Shown: positions 11,959-18,895 of the stretch, one piece after another
Layout: each line of letters starts with the position of its first letter
Position numbering within the stretch: position 1 is the first letter of the stretch
Origin: a bacterium BMS3Abin03
GTDB taxonomy: Bacteria; Bacteroidota; Ignavibacteria; Ignavibacteriales; Ignavibacteriaceae
Length of the DNA stretch: 36,054 bases
Direction: 5' to 3'
Assembly (NCBI GenBank): GCA_002898075.1
Contig: BDSV01000057.1
Span: 1 to 36,054, forward strand
Notes under the pieces: generated by a model
The model's database searches: none
What the model was told of the DNA's origin: nothing
Seen by the model: only the letters and a program-made list of their open reading frames with translations
Position numbers and translations under genes: made by a program

Positions 11959-13977
11959 TTAAATATTAATATCCATCTGGAAGCTGAGCCGGTTATCGAG
12001 GTTTCCCTCAATTTCGTTATAGCCCGACCCCAGGTTTTTTTCTTTCGGTTTGTAAGTTTCGGAGTATTTAGCAGAAATTGTAAGGAACCGGAGCGGGCGG
12101 AACCTGAGGATGAAATACCATCTTATTCCTTCCCCGAACAATGCACGGTTTGTAAGCACACCGGTTAAATCATTTTCATATTCATATATTGCCGAGTTGA
12201 ACGAATCTGTTCTGAAAAATATAACTCTGCCGTATATGTTTAAGTGCGAACTAGGAGCATACCGGATATCCTGAAAAAAAAGATATCCGTTTTCTTTCTC
12301 AATTACAGAAGCCACCCTGTAATTGTTGTATTCGAACCTTCCCTTGAGCCGTAATTTGCCGGCGATGTTGTAGATCAATTCAAAACGAAAAACCTGTCTC
12401 AACCTTTTTACCAATTGCTTCCTGTTATCTTTATCAACAGTAATATCTTTGTTTTCATATTTAAATCTAATCCTTGTTGCTACGTGTTCAAACGGTTTGC
12501 TTAATAAATCTATTAAGAATTCATCACCCTCGCTCGGCATCGGGTTGTTATAGGTGGCATAAGGAAATTTAAACTGGTCATAATAAAAATTTAAAAGCCC
12601 GATTGATGTTCTCCATTTTATCCCCGTATAAATACCAAATTCATTGTTCGTTGCACCCGATCTTTCCCCGAATGCATAACCATGCAGACTGATATAATTT
12701 CTCGGATAGCTTCGTATAGAGGCAATAAATGCAAAATCCCTGCTAACAGACAACTGAAACGAATTAATAGAAGCAACAGATGTTCCGTTGTATGCTAATT
12801 CCCCGAATACATTTATGCCGCTAAGAATTAAATCGTAATAGAACGAATAATAATTAAACGAGTTACCTTTTAGATTAAAAATAGCTTTTGGTAAAAACGG
12901 GTTTGAAAAATTAGAATTATAATAAAGAAAACCGGCAGATAAAAGATCTCTTTTCGAATAATCAATTCTTGCACCCCACACTTTTTCTTCGGCAGCATTT
13001 TTTTTGCTGATTTCACTTTGGGTTCTATGAAATCCGCTAACCGGAGCCGAAAGAATTTCGCCGGTAACAGTATCGATATGGGCATCAAATTTATTTTTTG
13101 AAAAGAAACCGGAAACAATAAAATCGTTTAACTTTATCGAAGCTGCGGCACCGCGGAAAAAATTGTTCTCTGTGGCGCTCGAATAAGGACGAATGTATCT
13201 GCCTTTCTTTTTTAAAGGGTAGATTGCATCGGAACCTTTCGAAAAACCGTAAGGACTCCACAAAACCAATCCCTGTCCAAACTCTACAAGATAATCACTT
13301 ATTACAAGTGTCTTTATAAAACCAAGGTTTTTAATAGCAAAATGAACCGAATAAAATTCATTAAGAGCCGATTCGCCCGCATCTTTTTCTGCAATATATC
13401 CGAACTGATAATTCGACATATACTTCAGGTAAAAGCGGTTGTAAATTTTGGGCTTGCTGCCCTGAAATTTCTCCTCTAAAAAGCCTCTTCGTGTTTGAAG
13501 ATCGTTCGAGAACCTGCTTCTCGAAACGAAATAGGTGTTGCCGAGAATTTGATTCACCGCACCTTGTTCCTGCTCTTTTTCAATTTGCAGTTCGGAAGGA
13601 TGAATTACTTTTATAAACGGCATCATCATTTTAACTTCATCTTTCCCGATTCCCTGTACCGCATATAATTCTTGTGTAGAAAAAAAATTACCGTATCTTT
13701 TTCTGTGTTTGATTATTATTTGTGCCGTATGCAAATCTACACCGGGAATCTGCTGAAGATCCGATATGTCCGCTTTGTTCAAATCGATTGGATTTCTTTT
13801 AAGCTGTTCCAGTATATCGAAAAGATTAGAATCATCCGATTGCCCTGTAGGTTCCTGTAAAATATCTTCCAGCACGTTTTCCGTTTCGATGTATGATGAA
13901 TCTGTTTGCGCTAAAAGGATGCCGGGCAGGTTAAAGGATAAAATCAAAAGAAGTAATATTTTCTTGTGCGGAAACAT
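11959..13977 (-). CDS. Helix-hairpin-helix protein with predicted outer-membrane beta-barrel
   Basis: A 672-residue secreted protein with a signal peptide (residues 1-23, ending LLAQ). Residues about 60-125 carry two ComEA-like helix-hairpin-helix units, with hairpins at QQIPGVD and YAVQGIGKDE preceded by the typical LNKADISDLQ. These are usual for DNA binding. From about residue 145 to the end the chain is a long series of aromatic-rich alternating strands ending in LSFQMDINI, which looks like an outer-membrane barrel. It starts two bases after the stop of the PorV-like gene on the same strand, so they are co-transcribed. I infer a role in moving DNA or another polymer across the envelope. 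A purely structural role for the HhH part is possible. Confidence 0.75.
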   Translation of the reverse strand: MFPHKKILLLLILSFNLPGILLAQTDSSYIETENVLEDILQEPTGQSDDSNLFDILEQLKRNPIDLNKADISDLQQIPGVDLHTAQIIIKHRKRYGNFFSTQELYAVQGIGKDEVKMMMPFIKVIHPSELQIEKEQEQGAVNQILGNTYFVSRSRFSNDLQTRRGFLEEKFQGSKPKIYNRFYLKYMSNYQFGYIAEKDAGESALNEFYSVHFAIKNLGFIKTLVISDYLVEFGQGLVLWSPYGFSKGSDAIYPLKKKGRYIRPYSSATENNFFRGAAASIKLNDFIVSGFFSKNKFDAHIDTVTGEILSAPVSGFHRTQSEISKKNAAEEKVWGARIDYSKRDLLSAGFLYYNSNFSNPFLPKAIFNLKGNSFNYYSFYYDLILSGINVFGELAYNGTSVASINSFQLSVSRDFAFIASIRSYPRNYISLHGYAFGERSGATNNEFGIYTGIKWRTSIGLLNFYYDQFKFPYATYNNPMPSEGDEFLIDLLSKPFEHVATRIRFKYENKDITVDKDNRKQLVKRLRQVFRFELIYNIAGKLRLKGRFEYNNYRVASVIEKENGYLFFQDIRYAPSSHLNIYGRVIFFRTDSFNSAIYEYENDLTGVLTNRALFGEGIRWYFILRFRPLRFLTISAKYSETYKPKEKNLGSGYNEIEGNLDNRLSFQMDINI

Positions 13978-13979
13978 TA

Positions 13980-14837
13980 TTATTTTTTATTTAAATATTT
14001 TTTTATCTGTCTTGAACGGCTTTCTGTTTTTCCGAAACTTATTATTACCCCAACCTGATGGGTTAGCCCCAGATCCTGGTGAGTAAATAAGGCATAATCC
14101 AGATTTATGATAGAATAATTTATTCCAATGCCGGCTGAATATCTCGCCGGTTCATTCTGAAAACCTGTTCTTAAGGTAAGGTATTTGATTATTGAGTATT
14201 CAACACCGAATTGTACCGACGGTTTAAATCTAATATCTTTTTCGAGGGCGAGATTCAAATTTAAATTATCAATTACATCATAACTAAAGCCGGTAGCAAA
14301 AACCATCGGTATCTGATCATCTTCTGCTGCAACTGTTGCTTTGTTTATGTTCGATACTGAAAAACCCCAGCGGAGTTTGTCGGTCAGGTAAGCAAGTCCG
14401 CCAAGGTTTATGTAAAACACGCCGGCACTGCCGTAATTCTGAATCGAAAAGGAGTGATAGTTAAAAGCTACCCCCGCAAAAAACAAGTCGTTATAATTGT
14501 AAGAATAGCCAAGGACAATTTTCGATTCCCTGTATAAATCAAAACCGTAAGTCATCCCTCCAAGAGCAACCGATCCGAATGAGAATGGCTCGATATATGC
14601 AACATAGCCGTTAGCCAGCTCGCTCAATCCAAACGGAGCGGGGGAATAATATACCCCAATTTCCCGCCAGTTTAATTGTGATAAACCCGCCGGATTGTTG
14701 AACACGGAAAACACATCATTACTAAGTGCAACATCGGAATTTGACAGAGCTATTTGTTTTGCTCCCGGGTTGAATTGAGAGTAAGAAACATTTATTATTA
14801 AAAACGGAACAATTAATAATATGCAGTGTTTAATCAT
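13980..14837 (-). CDS. PorV/PorQ-like outer-membrane beta-barrel protein
   Basis: 285 residues with a signal peptide (about 1-20, ending VSYSQ). An N-terminal segment with ALSNSDVALSNDVFSVFNNPAGL is typical of PorV/PorQ and FadL-related barrels, where an NPAGL element lines the inside of the pore. Alternating beta strands continue to the end. In T9SS organisms PorV shuttles cargo to the attachment complex and PorQ is a related barrel. Which one this is, or whether it is an unrelated paralogue, cannot be settled by eye. It is the first gene of a two-gene operon with the HhH/barrel protein and is divergent from the PorD homologue, sharing a 77-base spacer. Confidence 0.7.
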   Translation of the reverse strand: MIKHCILLIVPFLIINVSYSQFNPGAKQIALSNSDVALSNDVFSVFNNPAGLSQLNWREIGVYYSPAPFGLSELANGYVAYIEPFSFGSVALGGMTYGFDLYRESKIVLGYSYNYNDLFFAGVAFNYHSFSIQNYGSAGVFYINLGGLAYLTDKLRWGFSVSNINKATVAAEDDQIPMVFATGFSYDVIDNLNLNLALEKDIRFKPSVQFGVEYSIIKYLTLRTGFQNEPARYSAGIGINYSIINLDYALFTHQDLGLTHQVGVIISFGKTESRSRQIKKYLNKK

Positions 14838-14914
14838 AATTAAAAAATATCATTGAGACAGTATATCTATTTTCATATATTAAATCAATAAAAAATAATC
14901 AATCAGGTTAATTA

Positions 14915-15793
14915 ATGAAAAAGCTGATTCTATTACTACTGCTTTTTACTACTTACAATTATTCACAAGAATTAAATTGTAATGTTTTAGTAAATTATCA
15001 AAATCTTCCGGTTAATAACAGAGAACTGTTGAGTGATTTTAAAAATGTTGTAATGGATTATATGAACAACACCCATTTTACAGATGAAAACTGGGATGGA
15101 GATAAAATCGAATGTTCGTTGAATATATTTTTTACAGGTGCTTCAAGCGATGTTGACTATAGTGCGCAGATTGTTGTGGTAAGTCAGCGACCTATTTATC
15201 AATCGACGCGCAACTCGCCAATGTTAACCATTAACGACGGCAAATGGTCGTTCAAATATGAAGTGGGGCAATCGATGTATGCAAACCTCGATGCATTTGA
15301 TCCGTTAACAAGCTTGTTAGATTATTATGCATTAATAATTATCGGGTTCGATATGGATACATGGGCGGAATTTGGAGGCACACCGTATTTTAAAAAAGCA
15401 TATAACATAGTAAACCTTGCTTCAAACAGTCAAAACCGTAACGGATGGTTGGCTAGCAGCAGCCCTTATAGCCGGTGGGGATTGGTAAATGATCTGTTGT
15501 CTGAAAAATATGCAAGCTTCCGTTCTGCAATATTCGATTATCATTACGGTATAGATATTTTTGCGAAGAATAAACAGGTTGGGCAGACAAAGTTAGTTGA
15601 ACCGATTGACATTCTTTATACTATTTATAAAAAGGAAGGTTTAATTAAAAGTGTTCTTGTGAAGGTATGGTTCGATGCAAAGTATGGAGAGATAACCGAT
15701 CACCTTAAAGACTACCCCGATAAAACGATTTTTACAAAACTTAAAAAAATTGATCCTTCACACACAGGTCGATATGATTCTGCCGAACCTTAA
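14915..15793 (+). CDS. porD: DUF4835 / T9SS protein PorD
   Basis: The 292-residue protein has a signal peptide (1-17, ending NYSQ) and begins the mature region with ELNCNVLVNYQNL. That opening, plus the conserved WAEFGGTPYFKKA and SPYSRWGLVNDLL segments, is characteristic of DUF4835. The family is annotated as the periplasmic T9SS protein PorD in Bacteroidota. Its biochemical role is not well defined. The length matches the family. The stop overlaps that of the convergent cyclophilin gene by four bases. It lies divergent from the PorV-like gene, which fits a T9SS connection, as does the T9SS cargo protein at the right end of the window. Confidence 0.8.
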   Translation: MKKLILLLLLFTTYNYSQELNCNVLVNYQNLPVNNRELLSDFKNVVMDYMNNTHFTDENWDGDKIECSLNIFFTGASSDVDYSAQIVVVSQRPIYQSTRNSPMLTINDGKWSFKYEVGQSMYANLDAFDPLTSLLDYYALIIIGFDMDTWAEFGGTPYFKKAYNIVNLASNSQNRNGWLASSSPYSRWGLVNDLLSEKYASFRSAIFDYHYGIDIFAKNKQVGQTKLVEPIDILYTIYKKEGLIKSVLVKVWFDAKYGEITDHLKDYPDKTIFTKLKKIDPSHTGRYDSAEP

Positions 15794-17766
15794 GGGAGAA
15801 GAGTTACATTTATAATTTTAGTATCCTGATCAATTTTATAGACGACATCCATCCCTTTGGTGACACGGGCAAATATTGTGTACCTGCCGTTCAGATGCGG
15901 ATAGTTACCCTGCATAACAAACCATTGCGATCCTTCGGTATCTTTGCCGGCGCTTGCCATTCCAACCATTCCAATATCGTAAGGCAGAGGAGAGAATTCT
16001 GAAATGATGTCATAGCCGGGTCCGCCCCATCCCGTTGCCGATGGGTCTCCGCACTGAATTACAAAGCCGGGAACAACCCGGTGGAATTCAATACCGTTAT
16101 AAAATCCTTTACCGGCAAGCTTGCAGAAATTTCCAACTGATACGGGAGCATACCGGGGTAAAAATTCAATTGTGAAATTCCCTTTTTCTGTTTCAACATT
16201 TGCAGTTTTGTAAGTGAAAGCATTTCTCCAAATTTCGTTAAAATCTTGCAAAGGTTTTTCGTATTTTAATTTCTGTCCCGATTTATCTGCGATGAATTTC
16301 CTGATCGAGTAAAGATTTGATTCGTTTAATTCATCAATTACTTCTGTAAACAAACTCGAATCGATTCTTTCTGCAAGATAAGTTAAAGACATTATGCCTT
16401 CCATGAAATCGGGGTCATTTTTCCTGTAAGCTATCTGCCGTTGAATAATTGTAATAAGCTTTCCCCTGTCTTTTATTATCAGTAATGAATCTATTCCGTC
16501 GGCAGCAATTGAAACCAAAGGAGCAAATCCGGAGGAGAGACTATTTATAACGGCTTCATACAAATTTTTGTTTTGAGAAAAAGATTCTTGAAAGTTCAAT
16601 ATGTTTGATAGTAAGTCGATTTTTTCCGCGAGATTTTCTTCAATCTCATATTTTCGCAATAAAAATAACAGACTGCTTTTATCCTGAGTATTTGAACCGA
16701 GATAATCATAATAGAATCGGTCATCTATCGAGTCTAAAAATGGGGTTACATCGCTTTTCGGGAACAGCTTTGTATAGGAGAGAAAAAGTTCACCTTTTGT
16801 GTTTGCTGCAAGGTTCTTTTTAAGAATAAGCTTACTTATAACTGATTTTAAAGAATCTTCTGTGCCTATGGGCAAAGTAATATTTTTTAAAGAAGCTGCC
16901 GCAGAGACTGATACGTTAGGATTTCCATTATCTAAAAGTTTAAGATATTCTAAAACATCATCCGTACTGTTAAAATTATAATAGACCAAAGATTTGGCAG
17001 CTTCAATCAGCAGAAGGGGATTGGTTGCGGTGAGTAAAAGACTAAATAGTTGTTTATCCTGCGGGAAAAATTTTTCTACCCTAAGATTCATTAATGCAAA
17101 TTGTTTAAGTTTTACGGTATCAGGATTTTCAGAAGGATGAAGTAGTAGGATTCTTTTCAATTCATCATTAATTTTTTCCGAATTACCCAATCTTGCTAAA
17201 GCGAAAAGAGCGTCGTTCTTGGATTCAACCGGGGTAATAGGGTTATCGATTTCATCAATAAGAATTCGGATGGAACTTTCATTTTTTATTCCTCTAAAAG
17301 CAAATTGATAAACCGCCAAAGATATACCGCTATAAGGGAAAGACGGTCCATCGAAATTTGCATAAAGAGTAATTATTTTTTTCAGATCATCTTCACTTCC
17401 TACTTTACCCAATGCTTCGAATAAATAACGCGAGAATTTAGTTATATCATCGCTGTGAAGTTTACTCCAAACATAATCAGAAGAAATACTGCTGCTGCCG
17501 AGCTGTCCTAAAGCAAAACAGATATACTCTGCATGTTTTGCAAATTGTAATGAAATAATATCAGGAATAAAAGATGTATCTTCACTGTTTGATATACTTA
17601 GTAAAGCGGCATTAACTTTCTGCCCACCCCCGGCATTTAAGTAGTTTGATATTACCCGTTTATTGAACGATCGTTCAAAAGTTGTTTTTACCAGGTCCTG
17701 ATCATCATTAGTAAATTGTGCATAAAGCAGAACCGGGAGTAATAGAATTATTATAAATATTTTCAT
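15790..17766 (-). CDS. Secreted peptidyl-prolyl isomerase: HEAT-repeat region plus cyclophilin domain
   Basis: From ATG 17766 this is 658 residues with a clean signal peptide (MKIFIIILLLPVLLYAQ). A TTG six codons upstream (17784) would overlap the preceding gene and is less likely. Residues about 30-500 are helical and resemble HEAT-type repeats (a repeated pattern around LARLGNSE and KSLVYYN). The last about 140 residues are a cyclophilin domain. It holds the catalytic FHRVVPGFVIQ segment, the GSQWFVMQ strand and HLNGRYTIFARV. Cyclophilins catalyse cis-trans isomerisation of Xaa-Pro bonds and here would act on envelope or exported proteins. The start is seven bases after the stop of the acyltransferase-like gene, so they may share a transcript. 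Confidence 0.88.
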   Translation of the reverse strand: MKIFIIILLLPVLLYAQFTNDDQDLVKTTFERSFNKRVISNYLNAGGGQKVNAALLSISNSEDTSFIPDIISLQFAKHAEYICFALGQLGSSSISSDYVWSKLHSDDITKFSRYLFEALGKVGSEDDLKKIITLYANFDGPSFPYSGISLAVYQFAFRGIKNESSIRILIDEIDNPITPVESKNDALFALARLGNSEKINDELKRILLLHPSENPDTVKLKQFALMNLRVEKFFPQDKQLFSLLLTATNPLLLIEAAKSLVYYNFNSTDDVLEYLKLLDNGNPNVSVSAAASLKNITLPIGTEDSLKSVISKLILKKNLAANTKGELFLSYTKLFPKSDVTPFLDSIDDRFYYDYLGSNTQDKSSLLFLLRKYEIEENLAEKIDLLSNILNFQESFSQNKNLYEAVINSLSSGFAPLVSIAADGIDSLLIIKDRGKLITIIQRQIAYRKNDPDFMEGIMSLTYLAERIDSSLFTEVIDELNESNLYSIRKFIADKSGQKLKYEKPLQDFNEIWRNAFTYKTANVETEKGNFTIEFLPRYAPVSVGNFCKLAGKGFYNGIEFHRVVPGFVIQCGDPSATGWGGPGYDIISEFSPLPYDIGMVGMASAGKDTEGSQWFVMQGNYPHLNGRYTIFARVTKGMDVVYKIDQDTKIINVTLLP

Positions 17767-17773
17767 GAGTAAA

Positions 17774-18895
17774 TCAAGTTTCAATCTCCCAGATCCTGTA
17801 GGATTTATACCTGACTGCTTTCATCAATTCTAATCCGCGATTCATCATATCGTTATCTTCGAGCACCCAGCTTGCCTCACCGCGATAGACACCTAATTTT
17901 GCTGCACGCTGGAGGATTTCCCAGTAGAGTACGGCATCAAATCCTTTCTTCTGATGTTCGGGAATTATTCCAAGAGTAAGAATTCTTGCCCAGCTAATCT
18001 GTTTCTTTTTTGTGTATAGTTTAATAAAGTTAAACGGGAAAAGCTTTCCGTTCATCTCCTTGAAGACCTGATTATAATCCAGCATTACTAAAGCTGCACC
18101 GATCAATTCACCTTTTACTTCACCAAAAATTACAAGCGAGGGTTCGACAAGCGGCTTCATATCTTTTGCCATTTCGTCGATTTGTTCTTCGCTTAAAGGT
18201 ACGAATCCCCAATTTGGCGCCCATGCTTTGTTGTAAACTACTTTAAATTTTTCTAAGTCTTTATCGAAATTTTTCATTTCAAGCTGCGTTACTTTTATGC
18301 CGTATCTTTTCCTTACTATCTCCTGCCCACGCTTCAATTTTTCCGAAGTAGTTATTTTATCGTACTCTATCTTCCAGGCGTAAAGGTCTTTTGCTTTTTT
18401 CAGCCCGTAATTTGCGCAAAGGTCTAAATAGTACTTTGGATTATATGTCATAAGTATTCGCGGTGAATCATCAAACCCCTCTAAGAGCATTCCGTATTCA
18501 TCATTGCTCGAAGGGTTTGCAGGACCTCTCATATACTTTAATCCTTTTTTCTTAAGCCATTTTTTCGCGGTATCAAATAGAGCATTTGCAACTTCCTGGT
18601 CGTTTATACATTCAAAGAATCCAAAAAATCCGGCATCGTCATTATGATATTTCAGATGTACATCATTCTTTATCGCGGCAATCCTCCCGACGATTTTCCC
18701 GTTTCTTTCCGCAAGAAAGTATTCGGCTTCGGCAGCTTTAAAGAATGGATTCTTTTCCCGGTTCAGAAGTTTTTTCCTTTCCATTATTAATGGTGGAACC
18801 CAGTGTTTATCACCTTTATAAATTTCCCACTGGAATTTTATAAACCGCATTAAATCTTTTTTGTTATTGACAGTTGTTATTAAAATATCGTTCAT
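17774..18895 (-). CDS. YghO/bCerS-like GNAT-fold N-acyltransferase (candidate bacterial ceramide synthase)
   Basis: 373 soluble residues with ATG 18895 behind GAGGT. The N-terminal MNDILITTVNNKKDLMRFIKF and the long YKGDKHWVPPL segment are the hallmark of the YghO family. The conserved RGPANPSSNDEYGMLLEGF block follows, and then a C-terminal GNAT-like acyl-CoA-binding part (TLGIIPEHQKKGFD, a GxxPxxQxxG-type loop). The bacterial ceramide synthase bCerS described in Caulobacter belongs to this family. It lies 78 bases downstream of the serine palmitoyltransferase gene on the same strand, with a terminator-like hairpin between them. Context supports N-acylation of a sphingoid base, but a generic acetyltransferase cannot be excluded from sequence alone. 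Confidence 0.7.
   Translation of the reverse strand: MNDILITTVNNKKDLMRFIKFQWEIYKGDKHWVPPLIMERKKLLNREKNPFFKAAEAEYFLAERNGKIVGRIAAIKNDVHLKYHNDDAGFFGFFECINDQEVANALFDTAKKWLKKKGLKYMRGPANPSSNDEYGMLLEGFDDSPRILMTYNPKYYLDLCANYGLKKAKDLYAWKIEYDKITTSEKLKRGQEIVRKRYGIKVTQLEMKNFDKDLEKFKVVYNKAWAPNWGFVPLSEEQIDEMAKDMKPLVEPSLVIFGEVKGELIGAALVMLDYNQVFKEMNGKLFPFNFIKLYTKKKQISWARILTLGIIPEHQKKGFDAVLYWEILQRAAKLGVYRGEASWVLEDNDMMNRGLELMKAVRYKSYRIWEIET

Follow-up and report, generated by a model that had tools for sequence, protein, structure and literature searches.

A helix-hairpin-helix outer-membrane barrel protein as a candidate part of the DNA-uptake machinery of Bacteroidota

Introduction

What is the role of a protein that joins helix-hairpin-helix (HhH) units to an outer-membrane barrel, and whose gene is paired with that of a PorV-like barrel next to the T9SS gene porD? 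The question is raised by contig 57 (BDSV01000057.1) of the bacterium BMS3Abin03, whose assembly (3.76-Mb, 94% complete) has its near relatives among the Ignavibacteria. This contig, 36,054 nucleotides in length, is referred to here as the window. PilQ/HofQ-type secretins form the outer-membrane DNA pore of type IV pilus-dependent competence. Competent Bacteroidota (Porphyromonas gingivalis, Riemerella anatipestifer) import DNA although no secretin of a type IV pilus is known from them. The initial annotation of the locus, made from its sequence, suggested an envelope DNA channel or a T9SS accessory part, and both suggestions are considered here.

Results and Discussion

The gene pair and its neighbours

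The HhH and barrel protein, here called HBB (672 aa), is encoded on the reverse strand at 11959..13977, and was recognised from its open reading frame, a match to HHH_3 and an AF2 barrel. Upstream of it, on the same strand, lies the first gene of the pair, PVL (285 aa, 13980..14837), for which the evidence is an open reading frame, a match to NF033709 (5.6e-21), an AF2 model and a Foldseek match to PorV. The TAA of PVL is separated from the ATG of HBB by 2 nt. A divergent intergenic region of 77 bp (14838..14914), in an arrangement kept in many families, lies between PVL and the forward-strand gene for T9SS PorD (DUF4835, 14915..15793). The product of the latter matches PF16119 (3.7e-73) and scores 235.4 bits against the T9SS_PorD model NF052317, which has a cut-off of 170, so the PorD homologue named in the initial annotation is a genuine porD and the overall arrangement of the locus was correctly described. 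Adjoining porD on the reverse strand is a gene for a HEAT-repeat protein with a C-terminal cyclophilin-type PPIase (15790-17784), and its position beside porD is held in some relatives (L013, L014, L023, L027 and L029). Co-transcription of PVL and HBB, which had been claimed together with the 2-nt gap, is suggested by this spacing and by conservation. A scan for promoters and terminators did no better than on shuffled sequences.

The PVL-HBB pair was found in at least 20 Bacteroidota families, mostly with porD, and is conserved across the phylum, as the initial annotation required. The HBB profile is matched by 384 of 395 Bacteroidota genomes, a number which includes the HhH of other proteins, most matches being full-length. 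Where both genes lie on one strand they are no more than 30 nt apart in 66 of 79 loci (median gap 3 nt), and therefore the pairing is not due to chance. The first contig scan took in Ignavibacteria-type genomes only, and in those of its loci whose flanks are long enough HBB comes directly after PVL, nearly always with a divergent porD alongside. In the wider sample, obtained by genome searches, the same order recurs at loci from many further families and the divergent porD is conserved. Genomes were called HBB-negative by profile and synteny, which very divergent copies may escape. The families labelled f30 and f26 appear to be Flavobacteriaceae and Bacteroidaceae, respectively. Five genomes of families f21, f24, f39 and f51 (loci L105-L109) encode, away from HBB, a PVL with its own C-terminal HhH (371-408 aa), an arrangement that speaks for joint action of PVL and the HhH module.

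Gut species also carry HBB. Parabacteroides distasonis has WP_121956131.1, with PVL (WP_121956132.1, 'hypothetical protein') 13 nt upstream, and Bacteroides finegoldii has WP_237924592.1 and no PVL; both are full-length HBB homologues (hhalign probability 100). These two loci (L174, L175) are on plasmid-labelled records carrying nadA or leuS, which look like mislabelled chromosomal fragments, and in both a radical SAM gene is next after HBB. In families f25 and f48 (L123, L124, L095) HBB is followed by a gene of TonB-dependent-receptor size (1007-1089 aa), and TonB receptor domains were confirmed in the L123 and L124 genes.

Predicted structure of the two barrels

HBB begins with a probable signal peptide of 23 residues (13909..13977), a hydrophobic N-terminus ending before QTDSS with the near-invariant Q24 and D26, and continues through an acidic linker to a single HHH_3 domain (residues 61-122, 13612..13797) and the predicted barrel (residues 148-671, 11965..13536). 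The AF2 model, built with 29 homologues, has a mean pLDDT of 82 (about 85 in the barrel) and a pTM of 0.78. It predicts that the C-terminal part folds as a barrel, as initially proposed, with about 24 strands as counted from the listed elements, joined by short turns on the periplasmic side and by long loops on the outside. One outer loop of 43 residues (231-273, FGQGL...SPYGFSKG, 13159..13287) is more conserved than the strands (0.57 compared to 0.45) and may be a plug. Foldseek with this model returned only generic large barrels, among them AlgE, BtuB and PfeA, at a TM of about 0.37, with no specific PDB relative. When PDB sequences were searched with the HBB profile, the only matches were to HhH domains, the best including ComEA and EEPD1.

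PVL is modelled (pLDDT 86) with 14 strands and an N-terminal NPAGL hatch, and its top Foldseek match is PorV (8gl6_F, TM 0.71, E 2e-11), in agreement with a FadL-type fold with hatch. The PorV/PorQ-like nature claimed for it is therefore borne out by the fold, although its scores fall below the cut-offs of all three family models (NF033709 PorV_fam, 75.5 bits of 90; NF033710, 22.6 of 250; NF033711, 28.9 of 220). As modelled, PVL is a minimal PorV/FadL-type barrel in which most loops have 2-5 residues. Net charge at lumen-facing strand positions, a sequence-based estimate from alternating strand positions made without coordinates, is +7.5 for HBB and -1.9 for PVL.

The HhH domain lacks the usual signature of a DNA receptor

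The HhH domain of HBB matches PF12836 (HHH_3) with an E-value of 2.6e-13 and 50.3 bits over a cut-off of 27, this one domain comprising two HhH motifs. Against the comE model TIGR01259 it scores 39.8 bits, below the cut-off of 152, and the short ComEA-like protein of the same genome is also below it at 55.3 bits. The GhG turn is the mark of DNA-contacting HhH hairpins. In the window copy hairpin 1 is degenerate (GVD) and hairpin 2 reads GIG. The domains were aligned to one profile, the controls being short ComEA-like proteins of the same phylum, most of them encoded in the sampled genomes themselves. A full GhG in either hairpin was found in 8 of 95 distinct HBB HhH domains compared to 21 of 31 HhH domains of the short ComEA-like proteins. 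The class to which the window's HBB belongs contributes only one of these (1/56, the window's own GIG) and the other HBBs seven (7/39). Mean net charge is -0.4 and -1.8 in the two HBB sets, or about -1 overall, compared to +2.9 in the short proteins. The GhG turns and basic surface of a ComEA DNA receptor are thus largely missing from the HBB family: the HhH fold is present, and the DNA-binding surface supposed in the initial annotation is for the most part not. The argument that the HhH must bind DNA because it is an HhH is not supported by these figures, and the domain is probably a docking module instead. In some divergent HBBs no HhH could be detected. In family f7 (L119, L120, L113) the HBBs are shortened (550-588 aa), very divergent and located beside porD, and an HhH can scarcely be recognised in them, if at all.

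HBB tends to follow ComEC

In family f22, comEC (PF03772 and DUF4131) lies directly after HBB in four genomes of three genera. The junctions are gaps of 3 nt (L088, genome G080) and 2 nt (L172, G138) or overlaps (L090, G122; L145, G002), and in L145 a RecQ-like helicase gene follows comEC. The HBBs at these loci are 32-77% identical pairwise and the more distant flanks have changed. Among the families looked at the linkage occurs in f22 only, and it is not found in the window's own genome.

ComEC is missing in 15 of the 395 genomes: all eight of f43, G317, G391 and five of f26, including four with a completeness of only 77-84%. None of the f43 genomes, nor G317 or G391, has the HBB barrel, and G410 is without both ComEC and HBB. 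In the genus of G317, HBB is absent from six of six ComEC-negative genomes and present in two of three ComEC-positive ones. Among 80 sampled genomes HBB occurs in 0 of 5 that are ComEC-negative and 63 of 75 that are ComEC-positive (Fisher p 3e-4, a descriptive value that ignores ancestry). All such distribution tests count related genomes as independent; the independent joint losses of HBB and ComEC number about four. The exception is G260 (98% complete, 290 contigs), in which HBB is present and ComEC absent.

HBB is largely complementary to another uptake system

In R. anatipestifer, RA0C_RS04915 and RA0C_RS04920 are DNA-uptake genes that are required for transformation and are described as a unique machinery (PMC8459023). 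DUF5689, the marker of RA0C_RS04920, has strong matches in 9 of the 80 genomes, seven of which are without HBB, and in eight of the nine a homologous barrel of ~900 aa adjoins the DUF5689 gene. Strong DUF5689 matches occur in 7 of 12 genomes that are HBB-negative and ComEC-positive compared to 2 of 63 that are HBB-positive (Fisher p 1e-5, again descriptive and ignoring ancestry). Family f25 contains both states: G017, G115 and G126 have DUF5689 without HBB, G007 and G033 have HBB without DUF5689, and G391 lacks both of these as well as ComEC. The exceptions are five ComEC-positive genomes with neither HBB nor a strong DUF5689 match and two f34 genomes with both. The window's genome has no DUF5689 match.

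A role in DNA uptake and its alternatives

Three independent signals, adjacency to comEC, loss together with ComEC and complementarity with the Riemerella pair, tie HBB to DNA uptake. We put at about even the chance that HBB acts at the outer membrane in the natural uptake of DNA by Bacteroidota, where it would most likely form the pore. The support for this function is genomic throughout. The envelope DNA channel of the initial annotation therefore stands as a candidate on these signals, and the HhH-based reasoning that led to it fails. In the mechanism we propose, DNA would reach the periplasm through the 24-strand barrel, which has a net positive lumen and is closed in part by conserved outer loops. 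It would be bound there by a short ComEA-like protein, separate from HBB, and ComEC would convey one of its strands inward. The HhH at the N-terminus of HBB would not be the DNA receptor but would dock HBB to a partner, which may be PVL, ComEC or the short ComEA. PVL would be a small PorV-type partner barrel, a T9SS-linked accessory used only where a T9SS exists.

Alternatively, the pair could be a T9SS accessory made up of a PorV-like carrier, PVL, and an outer-membrane barrel for export or anchoring, HBB. The commonest neighbour of the pair is porD, divergent in many families, and PorD is a translocon accessory which binds SprE/PorW (PMC10994853, PMC8754138); PorV is also the closest fold to PVL, and PVL adjoins HBB in no SprA-negative genome, although G063 has an unlinked weak match. 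This last observation indicates that PVL, and not HBB, tracks the T9SS. HBB itself does not co-occur with SprA and PorD: it is present in five of six SprA-negative genomes, being kept without SprA and PorD in G002, G010, G063, G181 and G230, all of which keep ComEC, and it is absent from many T9SS-positive, SprA-encoding genomes (f30, f27). Conversely, G317, G167 and G246 have kept SprA and PorD and lost ComEC and HBB. Dissociation in both directions suggests that HBB follows ComEC and not the T9SS. In B. finegoldii HBB occurs without PVL, and the near absence of loops in PVL argues against a PorV-type cargo carrier, as PorV is reported to bind cargo by its extracellular loops (PMC10994853). 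We consider the T9SS explanation unlikely for the pair as a whole; the T9SS accessory part of the initial proposal fits PVL better than HBB.

It is similarly improbable that HBB transports another polymer or lipid, such as exopolysaccharide, LPS or a siderophore-like ligand, and that both its adjacency to comEC and its loss with ComEC are coincidental. The generic matches to AlgE, BtuB and PfeA would be expected on that explanation, as would the near-universal presence of HBB in the phylum whether or not a lineage is known to be competent, and the positive lumen also suits polysaccharide or LPS transport. Among 45 loci with partly annotated neighbours, however, comEC and porD/PVL recur beside HBB and no polysaccharide or LPS gene does, and the joint loss with ComEC is left unexplained. 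A function in LPS or capsule machinery was rejected, since no such neighbour recurred in those loci. The literal form of the initial proposal, in which the DNA receptor is HBB itself, with an HhH that binds DNA like ComEA and a barrel that conducts it, has in its favour the HHH_3 score above cut-off, the sequence matches to ComEA and EEPD1, and the GIG of the window copy. Within its class of 56, that copy is alone in having a full hairpin, the genome holds a separate canonical short ComEA (L002, PGIGEKTA...VKGIGKSK), and the scarcity of GhG turns and the negative charge across the family make a receptor role very improbable.

HBB as a candidate pore fits the gap in the uptake pathway of P. gingivalis, in which ComEA and ComEC are essential and DNA entry to the periplasm is stated to be unclear (PMC11532111). 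A wider reading, to which we give a little short of an even chance, is that in most Bacteroidota the long-missing channel for DNA across the outer membrane is HBB, a single-chain barrel of 24 strands and not a secretin, tied to the T9SS through PVL and replaced by the unrelated Riemerella pair in Flavobacteriaceae-like lineages. HBB is a near phylum-wide gene, annotated without function, that has three separate genomic ties to the outer-membrane uptake step, and this missing step becomes testable through a single gene deletion. No HBB mutant was found in the literature searched. HBB could also be relevant to gene flow into the gut Bacteroides and Parabacteroides that carry it.

Comparison with known systems

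Secretins have a homo-multimeric fold (PF00263) and differ in this from the single-chain barrel of HBB. None was detected in 46 of the 80 genomes, 32 of which carry HBB and ComEC. The window's genome does encode a 420-aa PilQ/GspD-like secretin (G000:C79, L177) with a weakly PilM-like neighbour, so HBB need not be the sole DNA route there. This secretin may represent the 'T2SS' related to T4aP that PMC6668835 discusses for Bacteroidetes.

PorV and BamG, of the FadL superfamily, share the 14-strand fold and NPA hatch with PVL, which is distinguished from PorV by its 285 aa, its minimal loops and its failure to reach the PorV and PorQ equivalog cut-offs. BamG is a weaker fold match (9n2d_B, rank 33). 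Membership of the pair in the Bacteroidota BAM, of which the FadL-type BamG is a part, was rejected because BamG and BamH are reported as universal and PVL and HBB are missing in many lineages; PVL is also closer to PorV than to BamG, and the BAM literature examined names no HhH protein.

Short ComEA proteins, such as L002 and PGN_0421 of P. gingivalis (PMC11532111), have in common with HBB an HHH_3 domain in an exported protein. They are about 130-190 aa, without a barrel, and basic with intact GhG turns, whereas the HhH of HBB is degenerate and acidic. PGN_0421 fits this short class as judged by the position of its domain alone (94-165). The P. distasonis and B. finegoldii homologues are labelled 'helix-hairpin-helix domain-containing protein' by NCBI, which recognises the HhH and assigns no barrel or function. 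Identity of HBB with the Riemerella HhH protein RA0C_RS02645 was rejected, as the latter is described as periplasmic and as having its HhH units around residues 236-301; its layout resembles that of the three-HhH open reading frames of ~300 aa in L139-L143.

A parallel is offered by the Riemerella pair, which like HBB is proposed to act at the outer membrane in the natural transformation of Bacteroidota and combines a large barrel with a surface protein. No sequence relation between the two was seen, HBB matching HhH families only. The Riemerella pair consists of a carboxypeptidase-regulatory/TonB-receptor-like barrel of ~900 aa and a DUF5689 protein, and is unlike HBB in its unrelated sequence and its largely complementary distribution.
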